Origin: Elusimicrobiota bacterium | GTDB lineage: Bacteria > Elusimicrobiota > Elusimicrobia > UBA1565 | Assembly: GCA_016196755.1 (NCBI GenBank) | Contig: JACPXC010000011.1 | Span: 1-64,000, forward strand | DNA length: 64,000 bases | Direction of reading: 5' to 3' | Shown here: piece after piece, positions 24,690 to 49,664 of the stretch | Layout: the number at the start of each line of letters is the position of its first letter | Position numbering within the stretch: position 1 is the first letter of the stretch | Translations under genes and position numbers: made by a program | Notes under the pieces: generated by a model | Told to the model about the DNA's origin: nothing | The model's input: the letters and a program-made list of their open reading frames with translations, nothing else | The model's database searches: none

Positions 24690-25349
24690 TCAGGCTTTCG
24701 CGAGGAGGTAGCCGACCCCGCGCAGGGTCTTGAGCCGCTTGCCCTGAGTCCCGAGCTTCTTGCGCAGCGCCGCCACGACCTTGTCGACGGCTTCGACGAC
24801 GGCGTCCGAGCCCAGGCGGTCGAGGAGGTCGCGGCGCTCGAACGCCTTGCCCGGCGCGCCGGCCAGCACGCTCAGGACGTCGAACTCGCGGGCGCTCAAG
24901 CCCCCCACGAGCTTCCATGACTTCCCGCGCCGGACGTGGACCTCACGCACGCGCGCGTCGAGCCTGAGGCCGTCGTCGGAGAAGAGCCCCGGGGGCTTGG
25001 CCGACGGGAACAGGCGCTTGAGGTGCGCGCGCAGGCGCGCTTCGAGCGCATCATCGGGAGCTCCTTGGTCGAAATAGTCGAGCGCCCCGCCGGCCAGCGC
25101 CGCCGAGAGGACCTGGGGTGCTGCCCCCACGTCCGCGCAGGCCACGACATGGAGCCCGGGGCGCTTGGCGCGATGGGCGCAAAGAGCATCCCCGCCCAAG
25201 AGCGACAGATCGACCAAGGCCAAGCCGCGTTCTCTAGGAAGCTCGTCTAAGCGGGACAACAGCGGGGCCGTCAGCCCCAGCGCCCGCCAAAGCCTTTCCC
25301 AGCGCGCGGCCCGCGCGCGAGGGCATACCGTCCACGTGGACAGTCTCAT
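24690..25349 (-). CDS. winged-helix regulator with degenerate receiver (motor operon)
   Basis: A 219-residue OmpR-like protein. The C-terminal winged helix (about 120-219) is well formed, with SAREFDVLSVLAGAPG, a recognition helix around VDKVVAALRKKLG and the GVGYLL wing. The N-terminal half has a receiver-like outline but no acidic pair and no switch lysine, so phosphorylation is unlikely. Its ATG overlaps the motB stop by four bases, so it is the last gene of the motor operon and may regulate it. A similar pseudo-receiver regulator is encoded at 51648-52361. Confidence 0.78.
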   Translation of the reverse strand: MRLSTWTVCPRARAARWERLWRALGLTAPLLSRLDELPRERGLALVDLSLLGGDALCAHRAKRPGLHVVACADVGAAPQVLSAALAGGALDYFDQGAPDDALEARLRAHLKRLFPSAKPPGLFSDDGLRLDARVREVHVRRGKSWKLVGGLSAREFDVLSVLAGAPGKAFERRDLLDRLGSDAVVEAVDKVVAALRKKLGTQGKRLKTLRGVGYLLAKA

Positions 25350-26035
25350 CCGCCGCGCAGGAGGCTGATCTCGATGCGGCGGTTCTTGGCCCGCCCCTCG
25401 GCCGACTTGTTGTCGCCCGCCGGCCGGTACTCGCCGTAGCCCACGCCGGAGATGCGGCGCGGGTCGACGCCGCTGGCCTCGAGCTGGCGGATGACGGCGT
25501 AGGCGCGCGCCATCGAGAGCTCCCAGTTGGACTTGTACGGCCCTTTGCGCACCGGCACGTTGTCGGTGTGACCCTCGACGCGGACCTCGTTTTTGAGATT
25601 GATCATGTCCTTGGCGATGGCCTCGAGGAGCGGCGACGCCGCCGCCTTGAGGTCGGCCTTGCCGGAATCGAAGAGCACGCCCTCGCCCAAGGACAACGAG
25701 ATGCGCTTCTCGGTGACGATGACGCTGGCGGAGGCCCCAAGCTCGCCGCCCTCGGCCTTGGCGGTCAGGGCTTGCCCCAGCACCAGCTCCTTGTCGGCCT
25801 GCTCGGCCTTCGCGGCCACGGCGGGGCTCACCCGCCCGCCGAAGACGCGCTGGATCTCGCTGAGCGACTTTTCGACCGGGTCCTGCTCCTCCACGTCCTT
25901 CGAGAGGCTAAATGAGAGCATCAAGAGGAAGAGGATCATGAGGTAGCTCATCATGTCCCCGTAGACGATGGCCCAGAGGGCGTTCTTGTTGAGGTGGCCC
26001 TCGAGCTCCTCTTTGCGGAAGCGGTAGACGGCCAT
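25346..26035 (-). CDS. motB: MotB-like stator protein with OmpA-type anchor
   Basis: A 229-residue stator subunit. A basic N-terminus precedes one membrane helix with the proton-carrying aspartate D27 (IVYGDMMSYLMILFLLM). A linker follows, then an OmpA/MotB peptidoglycan-binding domain (about 110-225) with VRVEGHTDNVPV and RISGVGYGEYRP. It should anchor a MotA ring to the cell wall and drive torque with the proton gradient. motA lies one base upstream. No flagellar filament, hook or export genes are nearby. Confidence 0.9.
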   Translation of the reverse strand: MAVYRFRKEELEGHLNKNALWAIVYGDMMSYLMILFLLMLSFSLSKDVEEQDPVEKSLSEIQRVFGGRVSPAVAAKAEQADKELVLGQALTAKAEGGELGASASVIVTEKRISLSLGEGVLFDSGKADLKAAASPLLEAIAKDMINLKNEVRVEGHTDNVPVRKGPYKSNWELSMARAYAVIRQLEASGVDPRRISGVGYGEYRPAGDNKSAEGRAKNRRIEISLLRGG

Positions 26036-26036
26036 C

Positions 26037-26774
26037 TTATTTGTAGGAGAGGAGCCTGCGCTCGAGCACCAGCGGCACGGTCCCCTGCATCATCCCGATG
26101 ACGCCTTCGACGACCATGGCCTTCATCTTGATCTCCTGCCACAGGCGCATGCGCAGCTTGCCGGCGATCGGGATGCAGAAGAGGTTCGCGAACATGATCC
26201 CGTAGAAGGCCGAGGTGATCGCCACGGCCATCGAGCCGCCGACCGCCTTGGGGTCGGCGATCTGCTGGAGGACCTTGATGATGCCGAGCAGGGTCCCGAT
26301 CAGGCCGAACATCGGCGAGACCACGCCGGCCGTGCGGATGACGTTGATGACCTCGTTGGCGCGGTCGACCTGGTTGTTGACCTCGGTCTCGAGCACGCGG
26401 CGGACGAACTCGGGGTTGTTGTACTCGAGCGCCGTCGTCGCCGCCGCTCCCAAGAAGCCCCCCGCCGCCTGGGGGTCGGCCGCCCGCAAGGCCTGCAGGC
26501 CGCCCTGCTGGACCTGCTCGGAGAGCCGCACGATGATCGGCACGAGCTCGGCCGGGTCGGCGTAGGGGTCGGACCGGAACATGTTGAGGCAGGCCAGGAA
26601 GGTGTCCTTCACGTAGACGATCGGCGTGTTGATGAGCATCGCCGCGAAGGTGCCGCCGAACACGATGAGGATCCCGTGGGCGTTGACGAAGATGGAGCCC
26701 ACCTCGCCGCTGATCACACCCAGCGCGATCAGAAATAGGATCCCCGCCGTGCCTGCGATGGTCGCTAGGTCCAT
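26037..26774 (-). CDS. motA: MotA-like stator protein
   Basis: A 245-residue protein with four membrane helices: one at the N-terminus, one around HGILIVFGGTFAAMLI, and a pair near 145-200 (VVSPMFGLIGTLLGI and MAVAITSAFYGIMFANLF). The layout is that of MotA/PomA, with a large cytoplasmic loop. In that loop the segment usually written AR(K/R)xGxLALE reads VQQGGLQALR, so the Arg and Glu that contact FliG are Gln and Arg. The start ATG overlaps the stop of the coiled-coil gene by one base. It forms the stator with the MotB encoded next. Confidence 0.9.
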   Translation of the reverse strand: MDLATIAGTAGILFLIALGVISGEVGSIFVNAHGILIVFGGTFAAMLINTPIVYVKDTFLACLNMFRSDPYADPAELVPIIVRLSEQVQQGGLQALRAADPQAAGGFLGAAATTALEYNNPEFVRRVLETEVNNQVDRANEVINVIRTAGVVSPMFGLIGTLLGIIKVLQQIADPKAVGGSMAVAITSAFYGIMFANLFCIPIAGKLRMRLWQEIKMKAMVVEGVIGMMQGTVPLVLERRLLSYK

Positions 26775-27871: not shown

Positions 27872-27874
27872 ACG

Positions 27875-30334: not shown

Positions 30335-30386
30335 CGACCTCCCTCCGCCCCAGCGTAGCCGGGCGCTGTTACGGTTCCATTACCCT

Positions 30387-31946
30387 TCACTCGACCCCCT
30401 GGGCGCTCATGAACGCCTTGAGCTTCTCGTCGCCCGGGTTGATCTCGAGCGCCTTCTTCCAAGCCGCGGCGGCGCGCGGCTTGTCGCCCATCGCGAAGTA
30501 GGCCGAGCCGAGCCGCGTCCAGGCCGCCGCGTTGTTGGGCTCGAGCCACAAGGCGTCCCGCAGCGACTCGACGGCGGCCGGGAAGCGCCGCTGGTAGACC
30601 GCGTCCACACCCTGCTTCATGCGCAGGGCCGCCAGGCGCGCCGGGGGCAGGATCGAGTCGCGGTCTACCTTGCGGCCGGTGAGCCGGCCCATGGCGTCTA
30701 GCAGGCGGCGGTAGCCGGCGTGGCGGTTGATGGTCCCGGCCGCGGCGTGGGCCAGGAGCATGGCCCGGTCCTCCTCGCCGTCGAGCCAGGCGCTGACGAC
30801 CTGGTAGACCATGAAGGCCGCCGGGTTGTCCTGGCGGAAGGACTCCTGGTCGCCCGGATGGGCCTCGAGGTCGAGCTCCTTGACGAGGCGCCGCAGGCGC
30901 GCGGCGCGCTCCTTCCAGGACCCGTCGCCGACGTTGGGGTCGATGCCGAGCGCGGTGTCGAAGTCCTTGGAGGCGCGCAGATAGTCGCGCTTCTGGAGTT
31001 CGCTCTGGCCGTTGGCCAGGTACTCTCCGGCGAAGGCCTGCATCTTGGGCGACTTGCCCTCGGCCAGGGCCTGGCGCTGGCCGAAGCGATAGCCCACCGA
31101 GAGGCGCTGGGACATCCCGAGCGTCGGGTGGCTCAGGAGCGCCAGGTCGAAGCGGTACTTGGAGCGGAAGTGCAGGCCGCCGCCGAAGGAGAGCTGGCGG
31201 TCCTCGAGGCCGGCGCGCAGGGCGCCGATCCCCCAGGCGTACTCGGTGCCGACCCGGAACTCGCCGTCGGGCGAGACGTCGGCCGCCAGCGAGAGCGGCC
31301 CCACGAGGCGGTAGGCCGCCCCGACGCGGACCACCAGCCCCAGCTTGTCGTCGGTGTCGCCCTGCGAGAGCGCGAAGGCGTTTTGGACCACCGCGCCCAG
31401 CATGAGCTTGCCCGTGTTGAACGGCCCGGCCTGAAAGCCCAGGTCCGCGCCGATGAGGCGGTCCGAGGAGCCGGCCAGCGCGCGATTGAGCATCTTGCCC
31501 TTCACCCCGACCGAGAGCGCGGGATGGAAGACCCCGCGCCAGCCGTGGGCCACGCTCATCGCCGTCTCCGACCAGCCGAAGCCCCCGCTCTTGTTGTTGA
31601 GCTCGTCGCGCCCGTCGGCGCCCGAGATGCCGAGCCGGACGAACTCGAGGCCCCAGCCGCCGGCGCGCTTCTTCTTGTTCTGGGCGTAGCCCAGGTAGTC
31701 GTAGGTGGCGCCCTCGAAAAGGTTGGCGCGCATGAGGGTGACTTCGCGCGCGGGCAAGAGGCCCAGGCCGGCGGGGTTGTAGTAGACCGAGGTGACGTCG
31801 TTGACGCCGGCGGTGTTGGCGCCGCCCATGGCCAGCCCGCGGGCGTTGGCGCCGAACTGGAAGATCTCGCCGGGGCGGCCGCCGAGGTCGGCGCGGGCGG
31901 GCGCGGCGACGAGGACGGCGAGCAGGGCGGCGAGCACGCGGCGCAT
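30387..31946 (-). CDS. PorV-like outer-membrane beta-barrel with C-terminal TPR domain
   Basis: A 519-residue exported protein. Signal peptide 1-19; then a PorV/PorQ/FadL-like outer-membrane barrel (about 25-310) with the typical ANARGLAMGGA and YYNPAGLGLL motifs; then helical TPR-like repeats (about 325-515), for example AAWTRLGSAYFAMGDKPRAA. In Bacteroidota PorV shuttles type IX cargo to the attachment complex, so a role in exporting FlgD-Ig-tailed proteins is suggested. The start overlaps the stop of the stand-alone FlgD-Ig gene by one base. The TPR part would lie in the periplasm or at the surface. Confidence 0.8.
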   Translation of the reverse strand: MRRVLAALLAVLVAAPARADLGGRPGEIFQFGANARGLAMGGANTAGVNDVTSVYYNPAGLGLLPAREVTLMRANLFEGATYDYLGYAQNKKKRAGGWGLEFVRLGISGADGRDELNNKSGGFGWSETAMSVAHGWRGVFHPALSVGVKGKMLNRALAGSSDRLIGADLGFQAGPFNTGKLMLGAVVQNAFALSQGDTDDKLGLVVRVGAAYRLVGPLSLAADVSPDGEFRVGTEYAWGIGALRAGLEDRQLSFGGGLHFRSKYRFDLALLSHPTLGMSQRLSVGYRFGQRQALAEGKSPKMQAFAGEYLANGQSELQKRDYLRASKDFDTALGIDPNVGDGSWKERAARLRRLVKELDLEAHPGDQESFRQDNPAAFMVYQVVSAWLDGEEDRAMLLAHAAAGTINRHAGYRRLLDAMGRLTGRKVDRDSILPPARLAALRMKQGVDAVYQRRFPAAVESLRDALWLEPNNAAAWTRLGSAYFAMGDKPRAAAAWKKALEINPGDEKLKAFMSAQGVE

Positions 31947-32326
31947 CAGTGCCGGACCCCCACCTTGAGGACCAGGACGTCGCCGCCGGCGCGCAGGGCC
32001 GCTAGGTAGATCCCCTTGCCGAGCTTGCGGCCGGTCTCGTTGGTGCCGTCCCAGGTGACCTCGTTGAGCCCCGCCCGCCCGCCCACGGCGCCGGCCGCGT
32101 ACGAGCGCCGCAAGACCCGGACGCCGAAGACGGTGTAGACCGAGAGCTCGGCCGGGAAATCCTCGGCCAGGCGCCAGCGCAGCGTGGCGCGGCCGGTCCG
32201 GGAGTCGAAGGGGTTCGGATAGCTTGCCGGCTCGGTGATGAAGTCTGCGCGCTTGGGTGTGGTGAACGCCGCCACCGGAGCTAGGGCCAAGGCCGCGGAC
32301 GCCGCCGCAGCCCATAAGATGCGCAT
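31946..32326 (-). CDS. stand-alone exported FlgD-Ig (type IX-like C-terminal) domain
   Basis: A 126-residue protein: signal peptide (about 1-21), then a single FlgD-Ig-like domain with YPNPFDSRTG, LSVYTVFGVRV, VTWDGTNETGRKLGKGIY and the ending VLKVGVRH. The giant protein upstream ends with the same domain (YPNPFDSRKR, WDGADDSGTKVAKGMY, LKVGVIH). Here it is not attached to any cargo, which is unusual for a sorting tail. It shares a promoter motif with the giant gene and is coupled to the PorV-like gene. It may act as a competitor, cap or sensor for the export machinery; that is inference. Confidence 0.82.
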   Translation of the reverse strand: MRILWAAAASAALALAPVAAFTTPKRADFITEPASYPNPFDSRTGRATLRWRLAEDFPAELSVYTVFGVRVLRRSYAAGAVGGRAGLNEVTWDGTNETGRKLGKGIYLAALRAGGDVLVLKVGVRH

Positions 32327-32332
32327 GACGGA

Positions 32333-32390: not shown

Positions 32391-32413
32391 AAGCGCTGTA
32401 TTTACTAGCGCTT
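32391..32413 (-). terminator. terminator of the giant gene
   Basis: On the minus strand, AAGCGCT, a nine-base loop, AGCGCTT and further T residues. The left arm overlaps the TAA stop of the giant gene. Stem of seven pairs, short T-run. Confidence 0.5.
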
Positions 32414-35400
32414 AATGGATGACGCCGACCTTCAGAACCGCCTTGGCCCCGCCCGAGGTGATGACCATGATGTACATGCCCTTGGCCACCTTGGTCCCCG
32501 AGTCGTCGGCGCCGTCCCAGGCGACGGTGTTGGAGCCCGCCACGCCGCCGCTTGAGCCCGGCGCGAAGCTCATCTCGCGCAGCAGCCGCCCGAAGACGCT
32601 GTAGACCTTGATCGACACCTCGGCGTTAGCACTCAGCGCGTAGTGGATGTTCCCCGCGCGCTTGCGCGAGTCAAACGGGTTCGGGTAGAGGCTGGCGTCG
32701 GTGATCCCGTCCTTGGGCAAAGGCCCGAGCTGGACCTGCACCGGGTCGCTGGCGCTCGAGAGCACGCCCGAGCCGGTGACCGCGCTGACGCGCACAAACA
32801 GAGTCCCCGCCGGCAGACCGCCGGCTTGGAACGAATTGCTCGTGACGAGCGAGTCGGTCGACACCGCCAGGACGCGCAGCTCGGCCGGCCTGGCCCCGGG
32901 GGCGGCCGCCAGCGTCATCGCTTTCACGCTGGTCTTCTCGCCGGTCTTCGCGTTGATCCACTGCGGGCTGGCGCCGGTGCGGTACTCGACTAGGTAGCCG
33001 ATGATGCCCGAGGGGCCGCCCGGGATGTTGGCCCAGGTCACGAGCAGAGCGCCCGAGCCCGTCGTCACCGACGGGGCCGGAGAGAGCGGGACCTGGAAGT
33101 CCATGAGGATGCCGTCGGAGACCCCGACCGGGCTGTCGAAGGCGAAGCTCGACTGGGTCTTCACCGCGACGTAATATGTGGTGGCCTGGTTGAGGGCGAA
33201 GCCCGTGGCGCGCACCGTGGTCAGGGCGGCCGCGATCGCCGTCCAGCCGCGCACGTCGGTGCCGCCGGCCGTCGTCCCCACCGCGTAGAAGGCCCCGGCC
33301 AGCGTGCCGCTGCCCACGCTCGATACCCAAGTGAAGTCGAGGCCCTCGAAGTCGCTCGTCGAGGCGCCGGCGTCGGTCACCACCGGGCGCGAGGGGGTCT
33401 TGGCGTCGAGCACCGGAGCCGCGCCGGTGTTGAACGGCAAGCCGGCCGCCCCCACCGTGTCCGGCGAGCCCAGGGTGAAGTCGGCGGTCTGCAGCGAGAG
33501 CCGGATGTCGGCGCCGACCGTGGCCGAGATGTTGGGCTGGACGGCCAGGAAATAGGTCTGGGTCGCCACCCCCACCGTCTGCACCGTCGAGAAGAAGACC
33601 GAGGCCTGCGAGCCCGAGAACGTGGCGCTGCCCACGTAGAGGTCGGCCGAGCCAAGCGCCAGATCGCCGTCCACGTCGCGCCAGACGCCGACGAAGTCGA
33701 TCTCACCGGCGCCGAGGTTGCCGTTCTGGCGCACGACCAGCGCGCTCCAGCTCACGCGGTTGCGCGACGCCCTAGTCGAGAGGCGCGCCAAGGCCTGGCG
33801 CGCGCCCTGGTTGACCCCTCCCACCACCAGGTCGGCCGGCGTCACCACCAGCTCCTCCTCGAGCTTGCGCAGGGTAGCGTTGGCATCCGACTGGGCCGGG
33901 AAGCCCGCGGGCACGACGAAGTTGGGCGAGGAGACGCTCAAGGACGCCGTCGACTGAAGAAGGACCGCGAAGGTGCGGCCGGGCTCCGCGAACGGCGCCG
34001 GGTCGACGGTGAGGAGGTAGCGCTTCTGGCTGGTGCCCACGTCCTGGACCGAAGCGAAGCTCAGGACGGCGACGCCGCCCAGGAAGGCATTGAGGCCCGA
34101 GGTGATCTTGGTGTCGGTGCCGACGTCGACGACGCCGTTGATGTTCGCGTCGTGCCAGAGGCTTATGGCCTTGATGTCGGAGTCCGCGGCGCTCCCGGTC
34201 GAGCGCACGGTCAGGGCGGACCAGGTCAAGGCGAACTGGGTCGTCTGCACGGCCAAAGACATCAGCACCTGCTCGGTGGCGGCCTGCTTGAGCTCGCCCG
34301 GCGCGAGGTTCGTGGCCGTCACGAACAGGCCGGCCTGCGTGGCGACCACGGCCGCGTTGGTCGACTGCAGCGGGAAGCCCGCGGTGGAGACCGTGTCGGG
34401 CGTCTCGACGCGCAGGTCGCCGGCCGCCGCGATGCGCGCCCCCGCGGTGTCGCCCGCGGTCGCCGTGGTCTTGAAGTCGTAGGTGACGAAGTAGGTGACC
34501 GTGGCGACGGTGATGGTCTGGGTCGAGAAGCCCAGGAGGGCGGTCCCGCCGCTGAACACCGTCGTGCTAAGCCGCTCGTCGAGCGAGATGTCGAGCGTGC
34601 CGTCGCCGTCGGCGTCGCGGTAAAGCTTGACCGACGGCACGTGGCCGTCCTGGCCCGTGCCGGTCCGCGTCACGCGCAACTGGTTCCAGCGCGCCGTGAA
34701 GGCCGCCGTGCGGACCTTCAAGGTCAGCATCGGCACGTTCGGGGTCCCCTGGGTGACCGTCGCCGGAGCCGAATCGGTCCCTACCACGAACATCGTCGTG
34801 GGCGGGGCGTTGACGTTGAGCGCCGCCGACACGAAGTTCACGCTCGGGTCGACCCGATTCGGCGCGTCGACCGTGAAGAAGGCGCCGGTCGAGGCGCGCA
34901 CCACGACCGTGCGCGCGGGGACGGCCGCCGTGGAGAGGTCGAGGACGAGGAAGTAGCGCTTCGGCGCGGTCCCCAGGACCTGCGGGGTCGAGAACGACAC
35001 GACCACGCTGGCCGGGCCGTTGCTGCCGAAGCGCTGGCCGGAGGAGGTCACCAGCAGATAGTTGTTGAGGTTCGAGGAGTCGAAGTTCCCCGTGTCGTTG
35101 GTGTCGTAGTAGAGCTTGACCTGCTTGACGTCCGCGTCGGCCGCGGTGCCGGCCTGGTCGACGCGCAGGCTCTGGAACGCGGCGTTCGAGACGTCGGTCC
35201 GCAGCGCCAGGCTCATAAACGGCACGTCGATGGCGCCGGGCTCCGCGCCGACGCCGGGGACGACGCTGGCGGTCGTCACGGTGACCGTGTTCTGGAACTG
35301 GTTGACCGGCACGAGGCCGGTCTGGATGGGGAAGGCCGTGGCCGTCGAGACCGTGTTGGGCGCGATGAGGTTGAAGGAGGCCGTCGTCGAGATCCGCACG

Positions 35401-41400: not shown

Positions 41401-44400
41401 CCGGTCTCGCTGAAGGCCCCGCCCGTCGAGTTGTAGACGAGGAAGGATGAGACCGTCGGCGAGGAGGTGTCGACCACAAAGCCCCCGACCGGCCCCCAGG
41501 CTCCATCGACCCCCAGCGAACTCCGCGAGCGCACCCGCCAGTAGTACGTCGTGCCCCCGGTCAGCGTGAAAGTCGAGAGGTAGACCCCGGTGACGCGGAC
41601 GAAGGCGGGGTCGGTGACCGCGGCCGGCGTGGCGACGCTGATGACGAGGCTGGGTGCTGCGAAGGCCGGGTCGGCGCTCGACACCTGCACGAAGAACTGG
41701 CCGCCCATGCCCTGCACCACGCTCGTCGACGGTCCAGTCCAGTAGAAGTCCGGGCGCGTGCCGGTGTAGCTGCCCGGCGCGGGAAGGCTGGGCGTGGAGA
41801 AGGCCACCGAGGCGTTGGTGTCGACGAGGACCGCGAACGGGCCCATCGTCCTCACGTTGCCGGCCACATCGGCGAAATGGAAGCGCGCCTGGTTCGTGGC
41901 CGAGCCCCCGGTCTGGGCCGAGGTCGAGACCGCCAGCGACAGGCCCGAGGCCGAGAGGGTCTGGTTCCCCGTGGCGCCGTGCGCGCCGGTCAGGGCCGCG
42001 TAGGGCCCCAGAGCCGGGACCGTCGAGTTGATGACGACCCAGGAGGCGCCGGCGTCACTCGAGAAGCTGACGTAGTAGGGGTCGCCGCGCAGCGCCGAGG
42101 CGGCGATTTCGGCGTCGGAGAACGCCCGCGCGCTCACGCGCGCCTCGTCGATGGCGCCGCGGAAACCTTGGCCCGCCTCGTTGTTGCCGATGGTTAGCGT
42201 CCCGGCCGCCGAGGCCTGGGCGCCGTAGGTCTGCGAGGCGACGCGGACGCCGTCGAGGTAGAAGCGTCCGACCGAGCCGTCGTAGGTGAGGGCGACGTGG
42301 TGCCAGACCCCGGTGCTGACCGCCGCCGACGTGGGGGTCGACGCGCAGCCCAGGTCCGCCCAAAGACGGCCGCCGAGGAGGCCGAGGCGGGTGGCGCTGC
42401 CGCAGGCGCCGTCGCTCCAGGAGACCGCCGCCTGCGTCCCCGAAGTCGAGACCGTGTTGATCCAGGCCTCCAGGGTACGCGCGGCGTTGCCCACCGGCAG
42501 TCCCGCGGGCGCGGCGCGCTGGGCGAAGGAGGCGGCGTCGAGCAAAAGCCCCGCGCCGAAGCGCCCGGGCCCCCGGCCCGGGGTCCCCGAAGCCGAGAGG
42601 GCGTTGCCCGCCGGACCCGAGTCCGCCCAGTTCCCCGAGGTCTCGTCGAGGTGCCAGAGGCTGACGGCACCGCTCGACGGGGCGTAAGGGGCCGGGCCGT
42701 CCACGTTGAGACCCGAGACGGCGTCCGAGACGACGAGCTGGACCGTGACGCCCGCCGCCAGGTCGCCGAACTGGGTCTCGGCCACCGCCCCTCCGGTCGA
42801 GTTGAGACTCAGGTAGGAGCCCCCGACCGGGACGGTGCGGTCGAGCCAGAACGGCCCCAGGTCCGTCTGGAGGCCGGGGTCGTCGAAGGTATCGAAGGCG
42901 CGCGCGTGGAAGTACCAGTTGCTGTTGTCGGAGGCAGCCGTCACCGTGGTCTTCCCGGAGCTCCAGGCCGGCAGCTCGCCGCCGTCGACCGCGCTGGCCG
43001 GCGACTGGTCCCAGCGCCAATGCAGGTGGTCGATGTTGCCCGAGCCGAAGGCGGCCCGGAACACCACCGAGGAGACGTTGAGCCAGGTCCCGCTCGAGGT
43101 GTCGGCCGAGACCAGGGCCTGGGCGGCGACGATCGGCGCCGTCCCCGAGGCCAGCGGGAAGACCGAGGCCGAGACCGTGTCGGTGGCCCCGGAGAGGACG
43201 AACTCGGCGCTCGAGACCAGGACGACGCCGATGTCGGCCCCGGTCTGGGCCGAGACCGAGACGTTCCAGGCCAGGAAGAAGGTGCGGGTGGAGGGGCTCA
43301 GGGTCTGGGAGGTCCCCGCCCCGGAGAGCGAGAAGGTGGCCTTGCCGAGCAGGAAGGACTGCCCCAGGGTCAGCGCGGTGTCGGACCCGGCGTTGAAGAG
43401 CCCGTCGCCGTCGTCGCGGTAGAGCTTGAGCTGGCTGACGCTCGAGGCCGCGGCCGTCCCGGTGGCGGCCACCGAGAGCTGGTCGAGGGTGATGAAATCT
43501 CCCCCGGTCCAAAGCCGCAGGCGCATGACCGCCACGTTCTGGTCGTTGCGGAACAGGGCCGGCGGCAAAAGCGGCGCGGCGTCGGCGAATAGGGTATCGC
43601 GCGCGTCGGTGAGCGCCGTGCCGGTCGAGCGCGCGTAGCCGGCCGCGCCCCCCTGGAGCGTACCGTCGATCCCGCTTATAGAGGAGTCCACGGCGCGGTT
43701 GGCCACGACCGGCGCGTCGAAGTGGTAGAGCACGAGAGCGCCGCTGGCCGTGTTGCGGCGCAGCGGGGGCAGTTCGGCGGGATAGCGCACGAAGGCCGTG
43801 AGGCGCGCCTCGTCGAGCTCGCCGATGAAGTAGGAGGCCACGCCCGAGCCGTTGGGCCCGCCGACCGCCAGGTCGCTGGCGCCGTCGGCAAGGGTGCCGC
43901 CCATGGCGCCTGAGTTCATCGGCACGCCGTCGACAAACAGCCGGCCCACGCCGGCGTCGAATACCGCGGCCACATGGTGCCAGCGGCCGTCGGTGACCGA
44001 TACCTGGCCCGAGCCGTTATCGGCGCAGAGCACGGAGGAGCCCACGAAAAAGCTCGGCACGCCCGCGGAGCAGCCCCCGGCGCCGAGCCACAGCCGGTAG
44101 CCCGCGTCGCCGCCGGCGTTGCCGCGGGTGATGACGGCCATGTTCGCCCGCGCGGTGTCGGTCGAGCGAAGCCAGGCCTCGAGGGTAAACTGGCCGATCC
44201 CGCCCAAGTCGAGCGCGGCGGCGTAGGGCGCGGTGACCCGGTCGTCGACGCCGTCGAAGGCCAGGGCCGGGAGGTCGGTCTGCTCGACGCCCGCCCCGCG
44301 TACGCGTACCGCCTCGCCGTCTAGGTGCAGCGCGATGGAGGCGCCCTCCACCGGGAGGAAGTCCGGCCGGACGGTCGCGCCGACGAAATAGGTGCGGGTC

Positions 44401-47400
44401 GAGTTCTGCAGAGTGTCGGGAGCCGCCAAGGACAGCGTCACCGCGCTCGAGACGAAGCTCGCCGGCGAGGTGAGCAGGCTCAGCTCGTCGGAGGCGGTGA
44501 AGGCCCCGTCGCCGTCGTCCAAGTAGAGGCCGACGTTCGAGAGCGCCGCGTCGGGAAGGGTGCCGGTCTTGCGCACCGAGAGCTTGAGCAGATCGGCCGT
44601 GGCGCCCGTCCCTTCCGTCCAGAGTCGGAGCTTGAGGAACGCCGTGGTGCCGCCCTGCAGGGTCGTCGTCAGGGAGACGTCGTCGACGCGGCCGACGACG
44701 ACGCGGGCGTAGGCGTTGGGCGAGTTGGAGAGCGCGGAGCGCGAGCCGACGGAGTCTTTCGTGGTCAGGGCGAAGTACCAAGTCTTGCCGGGCTCGACCG
44801 ACACGCGCAGAGTGACCGGGGCGCCGGCGGTGCCCACTGCGGAGAGGGCCTGCGCGTAGGGCGCGGCGGCGTACCTGGCCAGGGTGTCCAAGGCCCCCGC
44901 CGAGGACCAGCGCACGTCGTAGACCGCCCCCGCGGCCAGGTCGCCCACGCCGGCGTCCTCGCCCGGGGCGTTGAAAGTCAATGCGATCCAGGCCGTCGAG
45001 GAAGTCTCCACCGTCGAGTCCTGGGCCGCGGAGAGGACCACGGCCGAGGGGGGCACGATGTTGGCGACCTGGGCGGCCGACTCGCCGGAGCGCAGGGACT
45101 CCCCGTCCTCGGTGACGACCGCCCAGTGGACCGTGGCCCCCTTCGACATGACCAGCTTCAGCCCGCGCTGGGAGTCGGAGAGCTTCGTGCTGTAGAGGAA
45201 GGAACCGCCGCCCGAATAGCCGTCGAGCGAATAGCGCGCCGGGATCTTTTGGACCGTGCTGGACCCGGCCGTCCCGGTGCCTACGCGCACGAAGTAGCGC
45301 AGCGCCGCCGCCGGGGTCTCGGCGTCGGAGGCGTCGCCCCACCGGAGGTACAGCAGGCCGGAACTCGACGACAGCGAGTATTCCGAGAACGAAGCGGAGA
45401 AGCCGGAGGCCGGCGCCGCGGGGCTGGAATGGCTGACCGAGACGTCGTTGCGCAAGAGTACCTCGTCAGCTGGGCCGTAGTTGGCCACCAGCGCGTCGAG
45501 GTCCCCGTCCTCGTCGTAGTCGCCCCAGGAGACGCCTTGTGAGCCGCCGGCCGACCCCGCCAGCGTCACCTTGGTCAGGACGCCCCCCCCGTCGTTGCGC
45601 AGCAGGACCTCGTCTTGTCCGGAAGAGTTGCCCACCAGGGCGTCGAGGTCTCCGTCGTTGTCATAGTCGCCCCAGGCGACGCTCCCTGAGTCCCCTCCGG
45701 TTCCCGTCAGCGTCACCGTCGTCAGCGTCCCCCCGCCGTCGTTGCGCAGCAAGACCTCGTCGGACCCATAATTTGCCACCAAGGCGTCGAGGTCCCCGTC
45801 GTTGTCGTAGTCGCCCCAAGCGACGCCGCTCGAGTTTCCGCCGGTGCCCGTCAGCGTCATGCTGCTCAGGACACCGCCCCCGTCGTTGCGCAGCACGTAC
45901 TCGTCTTGGCCGGCGGCGTTAGAGACGATGGCGTCAAGGTCGCCGTCGTTGTCATAGTCGCCCCAAGCGACGCCGACCGACGTCCCGCCGGTGCCGGTCA
46001 GGGTCACCTTAGTAAAGGTCCCGCCGCCGTCGTTGCGCAGCAGGACCTCGTCCTGCCCGGAATAGTTGGCCACCAGGATGTCGAGGTCCCCGTCGTTATC
46101 GTAGTCGCCCACCGCCACGCCGTAGGAATCGCCCCCGGTGCCCGTCAAGGTCACCTTGGTAAAGGTCCCGCCGCCGTCGTTGCGCAGCAGGACCTCGTCC
46201 TGGCCGGACGCATTGGCGATGATGGCGTCGAGGTCGCCGTCATTGTCAAAGTCGCCCCAGGCCACGCCCGTCGAATCGCCGCCGGTGCCCGTCAGCGTCA
46301 CCTTGGTCAGGACCCCGCCGCCGTCGTTGCGCAGCAGGACCTCGTCGGCGCCGGCGGCGTTGGCTATCAGCGCGTCGAGGTCCCCGTCATTGTCATAGTC
46401 CGCCCAGGCCACGCCGACCGAAGAACCGCCGGTGCCGGTCAGCGAGTTCGCGTAGGCCTGGGCAGTGGCTGGGTTGGAGAGCCCCGAGCGCACGCCGACC
46501 CCATCCTTGGTGGTGAGCGCGAAATAGTGCGTGGTCCGCGCGTCGAGCAACCCTATGCTGTAGCTTTGGCGCGCGCCCGGGGCGACGCTGGTCGCGACGA
46601 GGACGGAGAATACCGCAGGCGCCCCGGCATATGCCCCCGTGCTCGTCATCGGCGCCAGTGTGGAATAGCGGATGTCGAAGGCGCCGCCCATGATCGCCCC
46701 CGAGTCGCCGTCGTCGCCGGGGGCGGTCCAGGAGAGGGTCACCGTCATCGAGGAGGCGCCCAAGCCCGTCGAGACGATGCTGACGGCCAAGTCGGTCACG
46801 CGGCGCGGGGCGCTCAGCCGGGTCTCCTGGGCGGCGGACTCCGCCGAGCGCAGCGACTCCCCGTCCTCCGTGACCACGGCCCAGTAAGCCGTGGCCTCCT
46901 TCTGCATGACGAGCTTGAGCCCCCGCTGCGAGGCCGAGAGCTTGGTGCTGTAGAGGAAGGAGCCACCGCCGGAGTACCCGTCGAGCGAATAGCGCGGCGG
47001 GACCTTGTAGGTGGTGCTCGAGCCCGCCGTCGTGGTGCCGACCCGCGCGAAGTAGCGCAGCGCCGCGGCCGGGGTCTCGGCGTCCGAGCCGTCGCCCCAT
47101 AGCAGGCTCAGCACGCCCGAGGACGACGACGCCGAGTATTCCGCGAAAGAGGCCGAGAAGCCGGCGGAGGGCGCGCTCGGGCTGGAATGGCCGACCGAGA
47201 CGTCGTTGCGCAAGACGGCCTCGTTTCCCGCGCTGACGTTGGCCAGCAGGGCATCGAGGTCGCCGTCATCGTCGTAGTCCCCCCAGGAGACGCCATGCGT
47301 GTCGCCGCCGGTGCCGGTCAGCGTCACCTTGGTCAGGACCCCGCCCCCGTCGTTGCGCAGCAGGACCTCGTCTTGTCCCGAGGTGTTCCCCACCAGGGCG

Positions 47401-49664
47401 TCGAGGTCGCCGTCGTTGTCGAAATCCCCCCAGGCCACGCCTTCCGAATAGCCGCCGGTGCCGGTCAGCGTCACCTTGGTCAGGACCCCGCCCCCGTCGT
47501 TGCGCAGCAGGACCTCGTCTTGGTCGACGTCATTGGCCACGATGGCGTCGAGGTCGCCGTCATTGTCGTAGTCCCCCCACGCGACGCCTCTGGAGTTTCC
47601 CCCCGTGCCGGTCAGCGTCACCTTGGTCAGGACCCCGCCCCCGTCGTTGCGCAGCAGGTACTCGTCCTGTCCCGTGGTGTTGGCCACCAGGGCGTCGAGG
47701 TCGCCGTCATTGTCGTAATCCCCCCAGGCGACGCCGTTTGAATCGCCCCCGGTGCCCGTCAACGTCACCTTGGTCAGGACCCCGCCCCCGTCGTTGCGCA
47801 GCAGGACTTCGTCCTCCCCGAAGGTGTTCGCCACCAGGGCGTCGAGGTCCCCGTCATTGTCGTAGTCGCCCCACGCGACGCCGATCGAGAACCCTCCGGT
47901 ACCCGTGAGGGTCACCTTGGTCATGACCCCGCCCCCGTCGTTGCGCAAGATGACCTCGTCCTCCGTCCCCCCGTTGGCCACCAGGGCGTCGAGGTCGCCG
48001 TCGTTGTCGTAGTCGGCCCAGGCGACCCCCCACGAGTCTCCGGCGGTTCCGGCCAGCGTCAGCTTGGTCAGGACCCCGCCCCCGTCGTTGCGCAGAATGA
48101 CCTCGTCCTGCACGCCGTCGTTGGCTAGGAGGGCGTCGAGGTCGCCGTCGTTGTCGTAATCCCCCCACGCGGCTCCTCTCGTGTCCCCCCCCGTGCCCAA
48201 GAGGCCGATGACGTACGCCTGGGCGGTGGCCGCATTCGAGATGTCCGAACGCAGGCTCTGCAGGTCCGAGATAGTGATGGCGAAGTACCAGGTCGTGCGC
48301 GGGTCGAGGTTGGCGATGGCCGTGCTCTGGCGCACCCCGGCCGCCAGCGAGGTCGAGCGCACCGAGGCGTAGGGGGCGATATTGTAGGAGGCCATCGACG
48401 ATATCGGGAAGGTGGCCCAGCGGATGTCGTAGTTGTTGGAGGCCCCCGCTATGCCCGGCGCCGGGGCGGTCCAGGTCAGGGTGACGGTCTGGGAGGAGGC
48501 TCCCAGGCCGGTCGAGACCACCGAGGCGGCCAGGTCGGTTATCGCCCCAGGCTGGGGAAACGCCGTCCCATCGGCGCCCGCCAGCGCCGCGCCGCCGGCG
48601 CCGGCCGCGCCGGCCGTGACCGAGTAGGTCCACGTGGAGCCGTTGTAGCCCGACACCGCCACGACGACGCGCCCGCCGCCGCCGCCGCCGCCGGGGTCGT
48701 CGCCGAGGTTGGCGTCATCACCGCCCTTGCCGCCGCGCCCATGGATGGTCCCCGCCCCGCGCGCCGTGGCGGCGGTCAGGACCACCGTGCCGCCCGAGCC
48801 GCCGCCGCCCGCGCCCTGGTCCGTACCCGCCCCGTTGCCGTCGGTCCCGGCCGAGCCGTTGGCGGTCACGTAGCCGTCGAGGGTGAGCCGGCCGCCGACC
48901 GAAAGGAACACCGCCCCGCCGCCGTCGCCGCCGTTAAAGCCCGCCGAACACGAGCTCCCGCCGCCGCCGCCGGAGCCCAGGTCGCTCGGCGCGGCCGCCG
49001 TCTCGTAGGCCCCGCCGCCGGTCGGAGCGGCGCCGTCCCCTCCCGCGCCGCCGGCGCCGCCGTGGCCGGCCCCCGCGCCGCCCGCGTGCGCGGCATCGGT
49101 GGCCGCGCCGCCGCCGCCCGAGCCGAGCCCGGCCGTCCCCCCAGGGCAGCTCCCCGAGGTCCCGCCGGAGTAGCCGCGCCCCTGGACCGACACCGTGGCA
49201 CCCGCCGCCACGTCGAAGTCGCCGCTCACCGCGATGTTGACGAGGTATTGACGCACGGTGGAGTTGCTCCGGCTGCGCAGGACGGCCCCGGAGGCCAACA
49301 GCGCCGAGGCGGCCAGGAACTGGTGGGTCGTCCCCTGGTTCAAGGTCCCCCCCGAGGAGATCGTCAGGGCGGCGGTGATGACGGCCGAGGTGTCGATGAA
49401 GACCGCCGGGGCGCTCGTGCCGCCGATCGACAAGGAATTGACCCGCACGGTCGGCGAGGAGGCCGAGGCCGTTACGGTGACGGCGGCGTCGATGGTGACG
49501 TCGTCGGCCACGCCCGGGTTCACGTCGCCCGACCAGTTGGCCGAGGTATACCAGTTCCCGTCCCCGCCGCCGTCGTCCCAGCTCACGGCGGCCGCCCAGG
49601 AGGCGGAGGCGCAGCCCAACCATAGGGCGGCGGCCAAGAGACTTCTGAGCCAGGGGGCCTTCAC
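32412..49664 (-). CDS. giant exported multidomain surface protein (about 5750 residues)
   Basis: A signal peptide (about 1-25), a beta-rich NWY/NW segment, a Gly-rich region, then two large repeat units, each with a fibronectin-like part, seven FG-GAP/VCBS repeats of 49 residues (DYDNDGDLD calcium loops) and a shared module. Next come four LamG-type domains (coding near 44.3-43.7, 42.7-42.1, 41.3-40.7 and 38.4-37.8 kb) and a Kelch-like propeller (near 39.9-39.0 kb). Eight tandem copies of a roughly 155-residue module (37.2-33.4 kb) follow, with two more copies earlier, then fibronectin-like domains and a C-terminal FlgD-Ig domain. Such a protein should be a cell-surface adhesin or glycan binder. 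The GTG at 49664 is chosen because the signal peptide and promoter fit; a TTG at 49697 lies inside the -35 box. Confidence 0.9.
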   Translation of the reverse strand: MKAPWLRSLLAAALWLGCASASWAAAVSWDDGGGDGNWYTSANWSGDVNPGVADDVTIDAAVTVTASASSPTVRVNSLSIGGTSAPAVFIDTSAVITAALTISSGGTLNQGTTHQFLAASALLASGAVLRSRSNSTVRQYLVNIAVSGDFDVAAGATVSVQGRGYSGGTSGSCPGGTAGLGSGGGGAATDAAHAGGAGAGHGGAGGAGGDGAAPTGGGAYETAAAPSDLGSGGGGGSSCSAGFNGGDGGGAVFLSVGGRLTLDGYVTANGSAGTDGNGAGTDQGAGGGGSGGTVVLTAATARGAGTIHGRGGKGGDDANLGDDPGGGGGGGRVVVAVSGYNGSTWTYSVTAGAAGAGGAALAGADGTAFPQPGAITDLAASVVSTGLGASSQTVTLTWTAPAPGIAGASNNYDIRWATFPISSMASYNIAPYASVRSTSLAAGVRQSTAIANLDPRTTWYFAITISDLQSLRSDISNAATAQAYVIGLLGTGGDTRGAAWGDYDNDGDLDALLANDGVQDEVILRNDGGGVLTKLTLAGTAGDSWGVAWADYDNDGDLDALVANGGTEDEVILRNDGGGVMTKVTLTGTGGFSIGVAWGDYDNDGDLDALVANTFGEDEVLLRNDGGGVLTKVTLTGTGGDSNGVAWGDYDNDGDLDALVANTTGQDEYLLRNDGGGVLTKVTLTGTGGNSRGVAWGDYDNDGDLDAIVANDVDQDEVLLRNDGGGVLTKVTLTGTGGYSEGVAWGDFDNDGDLDALVGNTSGQDEVLLRNDGGGVLTKVTLTGTGGDTHGVSWGDYDDDGDLDALLANVSAGNEAVLRNDVSVGHSSPSAPSAGFSASFAEYSASSSSGVLSLLWGDGSDAETPAAALRYFARVGTTTAGSSTTYKVPPRYSLDGYSGGGSFLYSTKLSASQRGLKLVMQKEATAYWAVVTEDGESLRSAESAAQETRLSAPRRVTDLAVSIVSTGLGASSMTVTLSWTAPGDDGDSGAIMGGAFDIRYSTLAPMTSTGAYAGAPAVFSVLVATSVAPGARQSYSIGLLDARTTHYFALTTKDGVGVRSGLSNPATAQAYANSLTGTGGSSVGVAWADYDNDGDLDALIANAAGADEVLLRNDGGGVLTKVTLTGTGGDSTGVAWGDFDNDGDLDAIIANASGQDEVLLRNDGGGTFTKVTLTGTGGDSYGVAVGDYDNDGDLDILVANYSGQDEVLLRNDGGGTFTKVTLTGTGGTSVGVAWGDYDNDGDLDAIVSNAAGQDEYVLRNDGGGVLSSMTLTGTGGNSSGVAWGDYDNDGDLDALVANYGSDEVLLRNDGGGTLTTVTLTGTGGDSGSVAWGDYDNDGDLDALVGNSSGQDEVLLRNDGGGVLTKVTLAGSAGGSQGVSWGDYDEDGDLDALVANYGPADEVLLRNDVSVSHSSPAAPASGFSASFSEYSLSSSSGLLYLRWGDASDAETPAAALRYFVRVGTGTAGSSTVQKIPARYSLDGYSGGGSFLYSTKLSDSQRGLKLVMSKGATVHWAVVTEDGESLRSGESAAQVANIVPPSAVVLSAAQDSTVETSSTAWIALTFNAPGEDAGVGDLAAGAVYDVRWSSAGALDTLARYAAAPYAQALSAVGTAGAPVTLRVSVEPGKTWYFALTTKDSVGSRSALSNSPNAYARVVVGRVDDVSLTTTLQGGTTAFLKLRLWTEGTGATADLLKLSVRKTGTLPDAALSNVGLYLDDGDGAFTASDELSLLTSPASFVSSAVTLSLAAPDTLQNSTRTYFVGATVRPDFLPVEGASIALHLDGEAVRVRGAGVEQTDLPALAFDGVDDRVTAPYAAALDLGGIGQFTLEAWLRSTDTARANMAVITRGNAGGDAGYRLWLGAGGCSAGVPSFFVGSSVLCADNGSGQVSVTDGRWHHVAAVFDAGVGRLFVDGVPMNSGAMGGTLADGASDLAVGGPNGSGVASYFIGELDEARLTAFVRYPAELPPLRRNTASGALVLYHFDAPVVANRAVDSSISGIDGTLQGGAAGYARSTGTALTDARDTLFADAAPLLPPALFRNDQNVAVMRLRLWTGGDFITLDQLSVAATGTAAASSVSQLKLYRDDGDGLFNAGSDTALTLGQSFLLGKATFSLSGAGTSQTLSPSTRTFFLAWNVSVSAQTGADIGVVLVSSAEFVLSGATDTVSASVFPLASGTAPIVAAQALVSADTSSGTWLNVSSVVFRAAFGSGNIDHLHWRWDQSPASAVDGGELPAWSSGKTTVTAASDNSNWYFHARAFDTFDDPGLQTDLGPFWLDRTVPVGGSYLSLNSTGGAVAETQFGDLAAGVTVQLVVSDAVSGLNVDGPAPYAPSSGAVSLWHLDETSGNWADSGPAGNALSASGTPGRGPGRFGAGLLLDAASFAQRAAPAGLPVGNAARTLEAWINTVSTSGTQAAVSWSDGACGSATRLGLLGGRLWADLGCASTPTSAAVSTGVWHHVALTYDGSVGRFYLDGVRVASQTYGAQASAAGTLTIGNNEAGQGFRGAIDEARVSARAFSDAEIAASALRGDPYYVSFSSDAGASWVVINSTVPALGPYAALTGAHGATGNQTLSASGLSLAVSTSAQTGGSATNQARFHFADVAGNVRTMGPFAVLVDTNASVAFSTPSLPAPGSYTGTRPDFYWTGPSTSVVQGMGGQFFVQVSSADPAFAAPSLVISVATPAAVTDPAFVRVTGVYLSTFTLTGGTTYYWRVRSRSSLGVDGAWGPVGGFVVDTSSPTVSSFLVYNSTGGAFSETGPIDLRQGVTVQVTAADTVSGLGAANALTVGPGTAASWRFSERHGAAPLDEAAGAVGVLVGGRYGLTPFGAGLALSGAGQYMSAPNTAFQFAPASTFTVSAWVRPTASVNQVLAAVGAPLTPGGSNWVVWVNNTGALRLTNATGGGVLSPAGLIQNGVWQHVTVVQQGTKAWFYINGVLRHSQGWSGNSGGGTMAFSVGAGIRNTAVAEAFFNGDLDEVKVFSTASGPDEVAADFARGVPGRFAVEYSTTAGAAWNVVSATFPGAGFPYIAQTGVDGSAGPEVLTVRDLAPAHSTTAAVGSLGTNLLRFLSADRRGNFTLAGPFTLLVDTVAAAAVSTPTLPAPGVFVSTRPDFAWGGPSTTTAAGMGAGALFLLEADDQADFSSPAIAVSTPVVIAGTATAFTQGVYVSTFSLLHGTTYYWRVRARDFLGIYSQPLTVSSFVTDYLAPAGSAFASLNSTGGLVGESIGITLAAGVTVQLTVQDTGPAGLAHAELDDAVPYGVMYTTNGAGLWNDGSWGPTLTDAGATAARSLARYGGALFMGADTGRVWRFDGSVWALSTTLGAQRVLALKAFGGKLYAGLSANGQVWEFNGAAWSLSASFTAPDDVQTLEAYNGRLYAGLSSGRLMQYEPSNGRWELLHVFAAPPGVGVQSLGVYDGRLFAGANPNVYVLDTSTWSLSFTASASILALKAYDGKLFAATNNSGIISQFDGQAWTVSNDPPETESSVLTVHAGRLYAASAEPSNGRLYAYDAKSWVLVRTLPNAADKISALAAFGGRLYAGLEPASGNAEVFVSTPLVTSLSGAEGSAAPQTLSASGLSFEPSLTGTVCAGNPSCTATNQVRFAALDRGGRVGQAGPFAVLVDSLLSQPTAYYPAPARWVRETLPDFAWIEASTMPQHQVQVSTGPDFTALTINQTTAHYLLGATASLANDTTYYWRVKALNAFSVGSAFSPTVNFAVDPAAPSTSAYRHLNSTGGALAESQFTDLAAGSTIEFTVRDPASGLLLEPLGSQARVGAWSFEDSGTSSLDFSGRGHNATLDAAIVRSGSGYRGLGLRGSGTFAVNIASSPATTWTGLTVAGWAKPTRNASALMTLFATVRNQVYAQSAQGRVLYGARATGAGGCALNTAQTYPLGAWQHVAFVADPGANENRLYVDGELAASCSGASSAGDTRLRLLADGVTGIGSIDAYEGFLDEVRLFSAPLSAAAVRREADGAPFAVAFSTDAGASWSAVSSTFGAGPRLAFTGNNGATSDETIQIVGLPLRQSTVTAVCGQVSPCLATNQVQFFAPDRAGSVRTMGPFAVRVDTSVPTPVVLSLAPTATDQIAVISTGTDNTAGSGLRDFLFEASTSQAFAAPLSSSGFIAQTTYTFTGLIDATTYWVRVWSRDQLLNVSTPTVELATATFGTVFLTTQIAAPPSALQGAFVPMLTLRLASKPGSTSRLLSLRARKTGTAPDSSVDQVQLYAEADGDGVFSGGDTQQTAAGLALGEAVLVLAGAGIPLDVAASTFHVVFKMNAGAVTDDTVGLEISSTTSVGLQHPARAQGSFPAVVAPIPVSDGANVLNIIPTSLAPAAMQAGSNDIPVLELRAVTDTGTSIISSVTVTMTGTTPPSKVRSINLWRDADPVDGLFGPGDIRLTSDIDAFGGGNTATMSITGFQVSSRTVTTSARRFFITVSLAADAPQDSVFRLGLASTSAVTLQNLADTVAFSAAVLSSTVSVILNNVLTVAAVDETPAAYVQGERFTILRATMTVDVGAAQVNRVTARLTGNGQGSDIAAVEVWRDATTDGQGLSAVLDTRVGSAPYSGGLAVVDIDTQTILSGTSAVFFLAYVVEPAAAPGVTLGMKLNAGDVRAGNSGTTVAGNLPIESSSRTVQATVNRMVITNAIKDVSPGALLQGQQHAAMLRLDVISDKNDFSWLGLSVERLGTAPDSAVSAVNVFRDFDGNGSFDVAVDSRVTGGADVFSNSTATLTLPQVQTVSASTKTYFVTLSVAAGAESGKTLGVRISTTASFNLIAPNTVSTATAFPIQTGLVPVNQFQNTVTVTTASVVPGVGAEPGAIDVPFMSLALRTDVSNAAFQSLRVDQAGTAADADVKQVKLYYDTNDTGNFDSSNLNNYLLVTSSGQRFGSNGPASVVVSFSTPQVLGTAPKRYFLVLDLSTAAVPARTVVVRASTGAFFTVDAPNRVDPSVNFVSAALNVNAPPTTMFVVGTDSAPATVTQGTPNVPMLTLKVRTAAFTARWNQLRVTRTGTGQDGHVPSVKLYRDADGDGTLDISLDERLSTTVFSGGTALLGFSTQTITVATVTYFVTYDFKTTATAGDTAGARIAAAGDLRVETPDTVSTAGFPLQSTNAAVVATQAGLFVTATNLAPGELKQAATEQVLMSLAVQTTQFALTWSALTVRSTGSAADSDIKAISLWHDANINGVVDVGTDTKITSGLNAFLGGVAVLSFASVQDVGTSQKRYLLTVDPAPFAEPGRTFAVLLQSTASLSVSSPNFVVPAGFPAQSDANATLRKLEEELVVTPADLVVGGVNQGARQALARLSTRASRNRVSWSALVVRQNGNLGAGEIDFVGVWRDVDGDLALGSADLYVGSATFSGSQASVFFSTVQTVGVATQTYFLAVQPNISATVGADIRLSLQTADFTLGSPDTVGAAGLPFNTGAAPVLDAKTPSRPVVTDAGASTSDFEGLDFTWVSSVGSGTLAGAFYAVGTTAGGTDVRGWTAIAAALTTVRATGFALNQATTYYVAVKTQSSFAFDSPVGVSDGILMDFQVPLSPAPSVTTGSGALLVTWANIPGGPSGIIGYLVEYRTGASPQWINAKTGEKTSVKAMTLAAAPGARPAELRVLAVSTDSLVTSNSFQAGGLPAGTLFVRVSAVTGSGVLSSASDPVQVQLGPLPKDGITDASLYPNPFDSRKRAGNIHYALSANAEVSIKVYSVFGRLLREMSFAPGSSGGVAGSNTVAWDGADDSGTKVAKGMYIMVITSGGAKAVLKVGVIH
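33400..37190 (-). repeat. eight tandem copies of a ~155-residue beta module
   Basis: Within the giant gene, each copy carries a strand rich in Leu (for example VPMLTLKVRT), a TGT-x-D motif, a KLYRDADGDG-like acidic loop, a SGG-x-A strand and a TYFVTYD-like strand. Copies are diverged, so the duplication is old. Two related copies occur earlier in the protein (near 44.6 and 43.5 kb). They probably form a stalk. Confidence 0.75.
45443..46443 (-). repeat. second block of seven FG-GAP/VCBS repeats
   Basis: Seven copies of a 49-residue repeat built around TGTGGDS, GVAWGDYDNDGDLDALVAN and LLRNDGGG; the fifth copy is one residue shorter. Seven blades match a closed beta-propeller; the DxDxDGxxD loops should bind Ca2+. 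Confidence 0.85.
47195..48200 (-). repeat. first block of seven FG-GAP/VCBS repeats
   Basis: Seven 49-residue copies of the same repeat, followed by the same 120-residue module (SLDGYSGGGSFLYSTKL) as the second block. The two blocks start about 1757 bases apart, so the whole unit seems to have been duplicated. Confidence 0.85.

Follow-up and report, generated by a model that had tools for sequence, protein, structure and literature searches.

A set of flagellar-type motor genes in an Elusimicrobiota genome adjoins the genes for an outer-membrane barrel and a giant exported protein, which raises the question of what such a motor drives. The initial annotation proposed a gliding-like answer, in which the three would fill the roles of rotary motor, PorV and giant adhesin known from Bacteroidota gliding, the link being drawn from adjacency only. 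The stretch of DNA analysed here (the window, 64,000 nucleotides) is contig C44; its genome comprises 67 contigs with a total of 4.59 Mb.

Gene arrangement

The motor operon, the PorV-like protein and the 5750-residue protein were all recovered where the initial annotation had placed them, on the - strand. They form a single operon running from 49664 to 24690 in the order giant protein, mini-CTD, PorV-TPR, kinase-FliF-FliG (its rotor part is called FliFG below), coiled-coil protein, MotA, MotB and response-regulator-type protein. The intergenic distances are 85, -1, 52, 3, -1 and 1 bp (all ≤85 bp), and the response-regulator-type gene starts (25349) within the end of the MotB gene, with an overlap of 4 bp. 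The 126-aa mini-CTD gene is an operon member that had been overlooked. The features of the operon and of its upstream side are as follows.

32412..49664, - strand: giant secreted protein, 5750 aa; signal peptide, FG-GAP, Laminin_G_3 and FlgD_ig / T9SS type A sorting tail
31946..32326, - strand: mini-CTD, 126 aa; signal peptide and tail domain, nothing else
30387..31946, - strand: PorV-family outer-membrane barrel with C-terminal TPR domain, 519 aa
27875..30334, - strand: histidine kinase, FliF RBM3, one membrane helix, FliG middle and C-terminal domains, 819 aa
26774..27871, - strand: coiled-coil protein, 365 aa; no Pfam domain
26037..26774, - strand: MotA, 245 aa; PomA/MotA flagellar type along its full length
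25346..26035, - strand: MotB, 229 aa; membrane-helix Asp (YGDMMSYLM) and OmpA peptidoglycan-binding domain
24690..25349, - strand: response-regulator-type protein with DNA-binding Trans_reg_C domain, 219 aa; same position in genome G223
49871..51229, + strand: AAA/DUF4143 gene, between the giant and the upstream response regulators
51266..51646, - strand: single-domain response regulator (Pfam Response_reg, 106.6 bits), upstream of the giant
51648..52361, - strand: OmpR-type protein (Trans_reg_C), which stays with the gene at 51266..51646 in relatives
52363..53223, - strand: protein with C-terminal receiver domain; upstream position kept in genus and family

The single-domain response regulator is found upstream of the giant in relatives as well (neighbours in loci L040, L044, L046, L048 and L052), and the AAA/DUF4143 gene is absent from the equivalent place in four of them (G223, G261, G282 and G227). 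Because the same order recurs in relatives, the gene arrangement is not due to chance. Searches of the window for Rfam families and tRNAs gave no matches. Elsewhere in the window, at 9054-14658, an ATP synthase operon is interrupted by unrelated genes: a 109-aa PilZ-looking protein follows atpD, and an epimerase-like gene separates atpG from atpA (both named by eye).

The rotor fusion and the stator

Pfam assigns to the 819-aa reading frame the domains HisKA, HATPase_c, YscJ_FliF_C (score 31.7, cut-off 23.8), FliG_M (38.3, cut-off 25) and FliG_C (58.9, cut-off 23.3). A FliF-FliG profile built from 13 family members and compared with all PDB sequences matched FliG (1lkv, E 1.4e-53) and FliF (9yh6, E 1.9e-9; 8z5s, E 2e-7). 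The predicted model of the fusion (mean pLDDT 73.7, pTM 0.42) has fold matches to FliG structures (E 2.6e-11) and to the FliF RBM3 collar (E 1.5e-6). Among 100 distinct FliFG genes, 13 carry the kinase fusion (the window and 12 further non-redundant loci), and in genome G088 kinase and rotor are two genes that overlap by 4 bp. A gene-calling artefact was considered as the source of the fusion and rejected on the strength of these 12 further loci and of the split pair in G088. At the junction the window protein carries a signal-peptide-like stretch (..GGAARAQQ). All 13 fusions that were printed have a hydrophobic stretch at this place, followed by A-Q with one exception (L043, A-A-E). Signal peptidase may cut at this conserved A/Q position and so part the kinase from the rotor, as judged from the sequence pattern.

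At the torque interface of FliG, 23 of 24 sequences carry K/R where the alignment places R281, and 19 of 24 have an acidic residue six positions further on. The window protein has Q-M at the D288-D289 sites and lacks this pair, so that the torque charges are only partly kept (alignment by eye). Locus L073 (5714-10906) has a tandem pair of FliF-FliG genes within one motor operon, and in seven phylum-level loci (L077, L078, L177, L179, L183, L190 and L200) FliF-FliG is followed by a coiled-coil-like protein of ~1600-2100 aa.

The stator genes are of the flagellar type. MotA matches MotA_ExbB in Pfam with 82.4 bits and aligns along its full length with PomA (8brd, E 3e-30); MotB matches MotB_plug (34.6 bits) and OmpA (73.7 bits). 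Among 71 distinct MotB homologues examined by pattern, 64 have the Asp motif and 62 the peptidoglycan-binding motif, some of the misses probably being wrong gene starts. A coiled-coil protein of the same type as that of the window follows FliFG in relatives. Two MotB genes in a row are present in loci L185, L187, L191, L193, L197, L199 and L210. The genome of the window also has separate ExbB/ExbD-type sets, named by eye.

The barrel, the giant protein and its sorting tail

The PorV-like identity of the barrel was borne out by a profile of 29 relatives, which matches the PorV of the SprA complex (6h3i_F) with E 2.1e-20. The best PDB fold match of the predicted PorV-TPR model (pLDDT 86.8) is likewise 6h3i_F (E 1.1e-8). 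Taken alone, the window protein scores 62.3 bits against NCBIfam NF033709 (PorV_fam), which is under the cut-off of 90. Pfam places the TPR repeats C-terminal to the barrel.

The description of the giant as an exported protein with FG-GAP, LamG and a FlgD-Ig tail also held: it has a signal peptide, FG-GAP_3 (245 bits), three plus one stretches of Laminin_G_3, and FlgD_ig at 29.6 bits (cut-off 27) in Pfam. Its C-terminal tail ends in ...LKVGVIH, and orthologous giants were found in relatives. The tail scores 29.4 bits against TIGR04183, the NCBIfam model of type A sorting by the type IX secretion system (T9SS), above the cut-off of 23; a cargo with a type A C-terminal domain, which is a feature of type IX secretion, is thus present. 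The mini-CTD is under both cut-offs (16.2 bits for TIGR04183 and 24 bits for FlgD_ig), aligns with the giant tail at 43% identity and recurs ahead of PorV in relatives.

A tail profile matches 21 places in the genome, some of them away from motor loci. The best four matches (117-140 bits) are the giants of contigs C44, C38 and C25 and the mini-CTD of the window, all of which were members of the profile by construction; the remainder reach at most 45.5 bits. The giants of C25 (L162 whole, L060:1-6663) and C38 (L059) lie in open reading frames of 10886 and 6562 aa, respectively, and each is followed by PorV, FliF-FliG, MotA and MotB. On contig C3 the giant is tailless, and FliFG and MotAB are encoded on opposite strands.

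Linkage across the phylum

FliF-FliG matches were obtained in 121 of 294 genomes; of the 198 phylum genomes used in the searches below, 61 have one. A FliF-FliG profile scan of 84,980 species genomes returned 54 loci titled Elusimicrobia, Elusimicrobiota, Elusimicrobiales or just bacterium; the scan rests on three peptide patterns, by which distant relatives outside Elusimicrobiota could be missed. For the study of neighbours 155 loci including the window were fetched, their genes being taken from a simple gene caller and labelled with purpose-made profiles. The short loci L001-L038 (3-4 kb) were excluded from the neighbour counts. Eight loci that had been fetched for FliFG and in which none was called (L081, L083, L084, L132, L175, L176, L189 and L202) lie outside the 100 distinct genes counted.

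Within seven genes of these 100 FliFG genes, PorV was present in 85 cases, MotA in 71, MotB in 66 and a tail gene in 49, and a separate kinase gene of the same type was near 35. In 76 of 100, PorV precedes FliFG on the same strand at a distance of at most three genes, and eight have no upstream gene because of a locus edge. PorV is itself preceded by a tail gene, at a distance of at most two genes, in 42 cases; 33 have none, six are at a locus edge and 19 have no upstream PorV. In loci without a called FliFG, PorV made up 3 of 363 genes vs 113 of 1383 in the others, where contig copies are counted repeatedly and where 8 of the 37 loci without a called FliFG owe their inclusion to a FliFG match which the gene caller did not pick up.

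A tree of FliFG was built by a quick method from 96 of the 100 rows (four short ones, <380 aa, were dropped), and some of its branches are long. Neighbour labels cluster on this tree beyond what shuffled labels give. Conserved adjacency, which had been suggested as a check, was confirmed in the clade of the window, where a giant with a tail and PorV stand beside the motor in 13 of 13 evaluable loci among 14 rows; the fourteenth (L049) runs into the contig edge. By contrast, of the 32 rows in the largest class-level clade 31 have no nearby tail gene and one has. The genome of the window itself has four FliFG genes (contigs C44, C38, C25 and C3), each at a locus with a giant nearby. They fall in four separate clades, and the duplication is therefore probably old. 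The parts of the system and their conserved linkage are thus matters of observation.

Type IX export parts elsewhere in the genomes

Searches for SprA, PorU and GldK-N homologues had also been suggested. The Pfam SprA model matched 35 of 198 phylum genomes, and the genome of the window was without a match. A profile specific to Elusimicrobiota was built from 11 of those SprA-like proteins, all 11 of which match TIGR04189. It found SprA in 166 of 198 genomes, among them one place in the genome of the window (C22:6753-12032, 2038 bits). Its sole matches in the PDB are SprA (E 1.1e-39). The SprA of this genome gave no PDB match as a single sequence, and against TIGR04189 it reaches E 2.4e-42 and 144.4 bits, under the cut-off of 200. 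The SprA search thus bore fruit, with a divergent SprA in the genome of the window and in 61 of the 61 FliFG-bearing genomes of the 198. The other genomes have SprA in 105 of 137 cases (Fisher p 3.5e-6). Since SprA occurs in these 105 genomes without a FliFG match, the motor is not required for the retention of SprA. In many loci the Elusimicrobiota SprA-like genes have as neighbours two LptF/LptG-like permeases and a ComF-like gene, and the SprA of contig C22 (L243:4205-13067) lies beside two LptF/LptG-like genes, as in relatives (all by eye).

The search for PorU came out negative: Peptidase_C25 had no match in the genome of the window and one among the 198 genomes, with no control genome positive. 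GldL and GldM had been named as a rival motor that would speak against the proposal. GldM matched 0 of 198 genomes and GldL one, under the cut-off, and neither model matched any control genome. No rival motor above cut-off was thus found in the 198 genomes, a result that does not speak against the proposal and that, with no control genome positive, leaves the absence of these genes unproven. A peptidoglycan-crossing part such as GldM was likewise not found among the 198 genomes, again with no control genome positive.

Flagellar and chemotaxis genes

Of the flagellar core, FliG and MotAB are present. FlhA (PF00771) had no match in the genome of the window and matched 1 of 198 genomes (G032), FliM/FliN (PF01052) none and 1 of 149 (G032), and the N-terminal part of FliF (PF01514) none and 2 of 149, one of them above cut-off (G032). 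Each of these models was positive in 4 of 14 control genomes. An ordinary flagellum was therefore rejected: G032 is the one genome with confident matches to FlhA, FliM/N and full FliF, and the system is not a flagellum. This status rests on FlhA, FliM/N and the N-terminal part of FliF. The flagellar genes of G032 are on its contig C2 (L141 and L239-L241), and a true flagellum is probable in that Elusimicrobiota genome. The part of PMC7031533 that was consulted describes flagellar genes as absent in Elusimicrobia too.

Genes linked to motility were found near some loci. FlbD, a Pfam flagellar and swarming family, lies at most two genes from FliFG in eight loci, including C25 of the genome of the window, where it scores 79.7 bits and stands between the coiled-coil gene and MotA (L060:13841-14068). 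In genome G028, from a phylum in which flagella are otherwise mostly lacking, one FliFG locus, L069 (2-5360), continues with CheY/receiver, CheW, CheW, CheR, receiver, CheB and a CheA-like gene (CheA by eye); the long coiled-coil protein of this locus has weak Pfam matches only. CheW is present in 19 of 198 genomes, 16 of which are FliFG-positive (Fisher p 6e-7), and was not found in the genome of the window.

Interpretation and alternative explanations

In the best reading, the operon encodes a rotary motor of the flagellar type, without a filament, which drives adhesins exported by SprA and bound to PorV, with surface movement as the probable purpose; we give this reading a probability of about 55%. 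The gliding-like idea of the initial annotation is partly supported: of the two findings named as refuting it, neither a loss of adjacency nor a rival GldL/GldM motor above cut-off was seen (the latter in 198 genomes, no control genome positive), and SprA was found. From the parts we infer rotation, adhesion, surface display and movement in the following way. MotB would anchor the stator to peptidoglycan, and ion flow would turn MotA, which would rotate a ring of FliF-FliG subunits with its collar toward the periplasm. The giant would be exported via SprA and then be retained on PorV by its tail, this binding being proposed because no PorU-type sortase is present to cleave the tail. The TPR domain of PorV, or else the mini-CTD, may couple the PorV-adhesin complex to the rotating ring, and the giant would move along the cell surface and pull the cell when stuck. 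The histidine kinase and the response regulators would control the motor, a part that chemotaxis genes may play in some relatives. FlbD near eight loci and the co-occurrence of CheW with FliFG count in favour of this reading. Against it stand the largest class-level subtype, with no tail gene near the motor in 31 of 32 rows, SprA in 105 of 137 genomes without a FliFG match, the scores of PorV and SprA under their NCBIfam cut-offs and the missing PDB match of SprA alone, the partly kept torque charges, the lack of CheW in this genome and the tailless giant of contig C3 with its MotAB on the other strand. The transfer of force across the peptidoglycan is the weakest point of this model. A wider claim can be put forward tentatively, at a little less than even odds: that Elusimicrobiota possess a new class of ion-driven rotary machine, made of a stator and a fused FliF-FliG without export gate or filament, which drives giant type IX adhesins held by PorV, which was duplicated early, with at least four copies here, and which came to be controlled by a kinase that forms one polypeptide with the rotor.

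Other explanations have been weighed against this reading. The motor could power SprA export, as PorL/PorM do in Bacteroidota, with the giant as main cargo and no surface-moved adhesin. PorV and tail genes adjoining the motor, SprA in 61 of 61 FliFG-positive genomes and the lack of GldL/GldM above cut-off in the 198 genomes (no control genome positive) are in keeping with such a role. SprA is, however, kept in 105 of 137 genomes without a FliFG match, so that export there is independent of such a motor, and the genome has four FliFG loci with giants against one SprA match, which makes this explanation unlikely in our judgement. Less probable again is an envelope or contact sensor, in which load on the giant would pass via PorV to the FliF-FliG ring and the fused kinase, with MotAB tuning the ring. 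The kinase fusion seen in 13 of the 100 FliFG genes, a kinase gene near 35 of them and the response regulators flanking the operon at both ends would suit a sensor; yet deep FliFG clades are without such a kinase beside FliFG, so the kinase is an addition, and the signal-peptide-like stretch at the fusion point may split the halves.

Slightly less probable than the sensor is shared regulation only, with the giant as a static adhesin and the motor serving another job, e.g., TolQRA-like maintenance of the outer membrane. One subtype does have motor and PorV with no tail gene nearby, and tail genes of this genome also occur away from motor loci (21 matches in all), but rotor, stator, PorV and tail genes stay together across deep clades and the genome has its own ExbB/ExbD-type sets (by eye). 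Remnants of a lost flagellum are a very improbable explanation, although the parts of PMC12199754 consulted describe filament-less flagellar homologues in other non-motile bacteria. The frames are open, functional residues are conserved, four paralogues of this genome lie in four separate clades and the constant partner, PorV, is not flagellar; the conserved residues and the separate paralogues led us to reject the flagellar remnant as the main reading.

Comparison with known systems

No description of such a motor-PorV-giant system was found in the literature searched. All parts belong to known families; what is new is the combination, the conserved linkage and the failing of the flagellum-defining features tested. 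If the preferred reading, a filament-less motor acting on PorV-bound adhesins, is true, SprA/PorV export extends with a different motor beyond the FCB superphylum, i.e., the Fibrobacteres-Bacteroidetes-Chlorobi group in which the consulted part of PMC11205867 places type IX secretion. A hybrid would also join the three pmf-driven rotary motors named in the portion of PMC9127263 used here. A flagellar rotor-stator pair would work, or once have worked, as a free-standing engine, with a bearing on the origin and reuse of the flagellum and on movement or attachment in uncultured Elusimicrobiota. The role of rotor proteins in filament-less bacteria is left open in the 2025 survey PMC12199754, as far as its consulted text goes. 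Compared with that text, from which the string Elusimicrob is absent, the present analysis names a genetic partner and proposes a testable function, and the conserved PorV partner is a concrete, testable answer for such proteins.

In comparison with the flagellar motor, the likeness lies in flagellar-type MotA/MotB, FliF RBM3, the middle and C-terminal domains of FliG, and FlbD near some loci. The differences are that FliF and FliG are fused and that the genome is without the N-terminal part of FliF, FliM/N and FlhA. Myxococcus Agl/Glt offers another likeness, as a filament-less MotAB-type motor that acts on surface adhesins; it is not known to include the flagellar rotor protein FliG or type IX outer-membrane parts. 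Bacteroidota gliding and type IX secretion share with the present system an SprA-like translocon, a PorV-family barrel, a type A tail on a giant protein and an ion-driven motor in the inner membrane. In F. johnsoniae the barrel gene sprF is directly downstream of sprB (PMC9127263, in the part consulted), an order that resembles that of giant and PorV here. Unlike in Bacteroidota gliding, the motor here consists of MotAB and a FliF-FliG rotor, with no GldL/GldM above cut-off (198 genomes, no control positive); PorV has an added TPR domain, one protein of the operon is a tail on its own and PorU was matched in 1 of 198 genomes. Overall, the closest working analogue is the SprB gliding of Flavobacterium, in which GldLM and GldKN would be replaced here.
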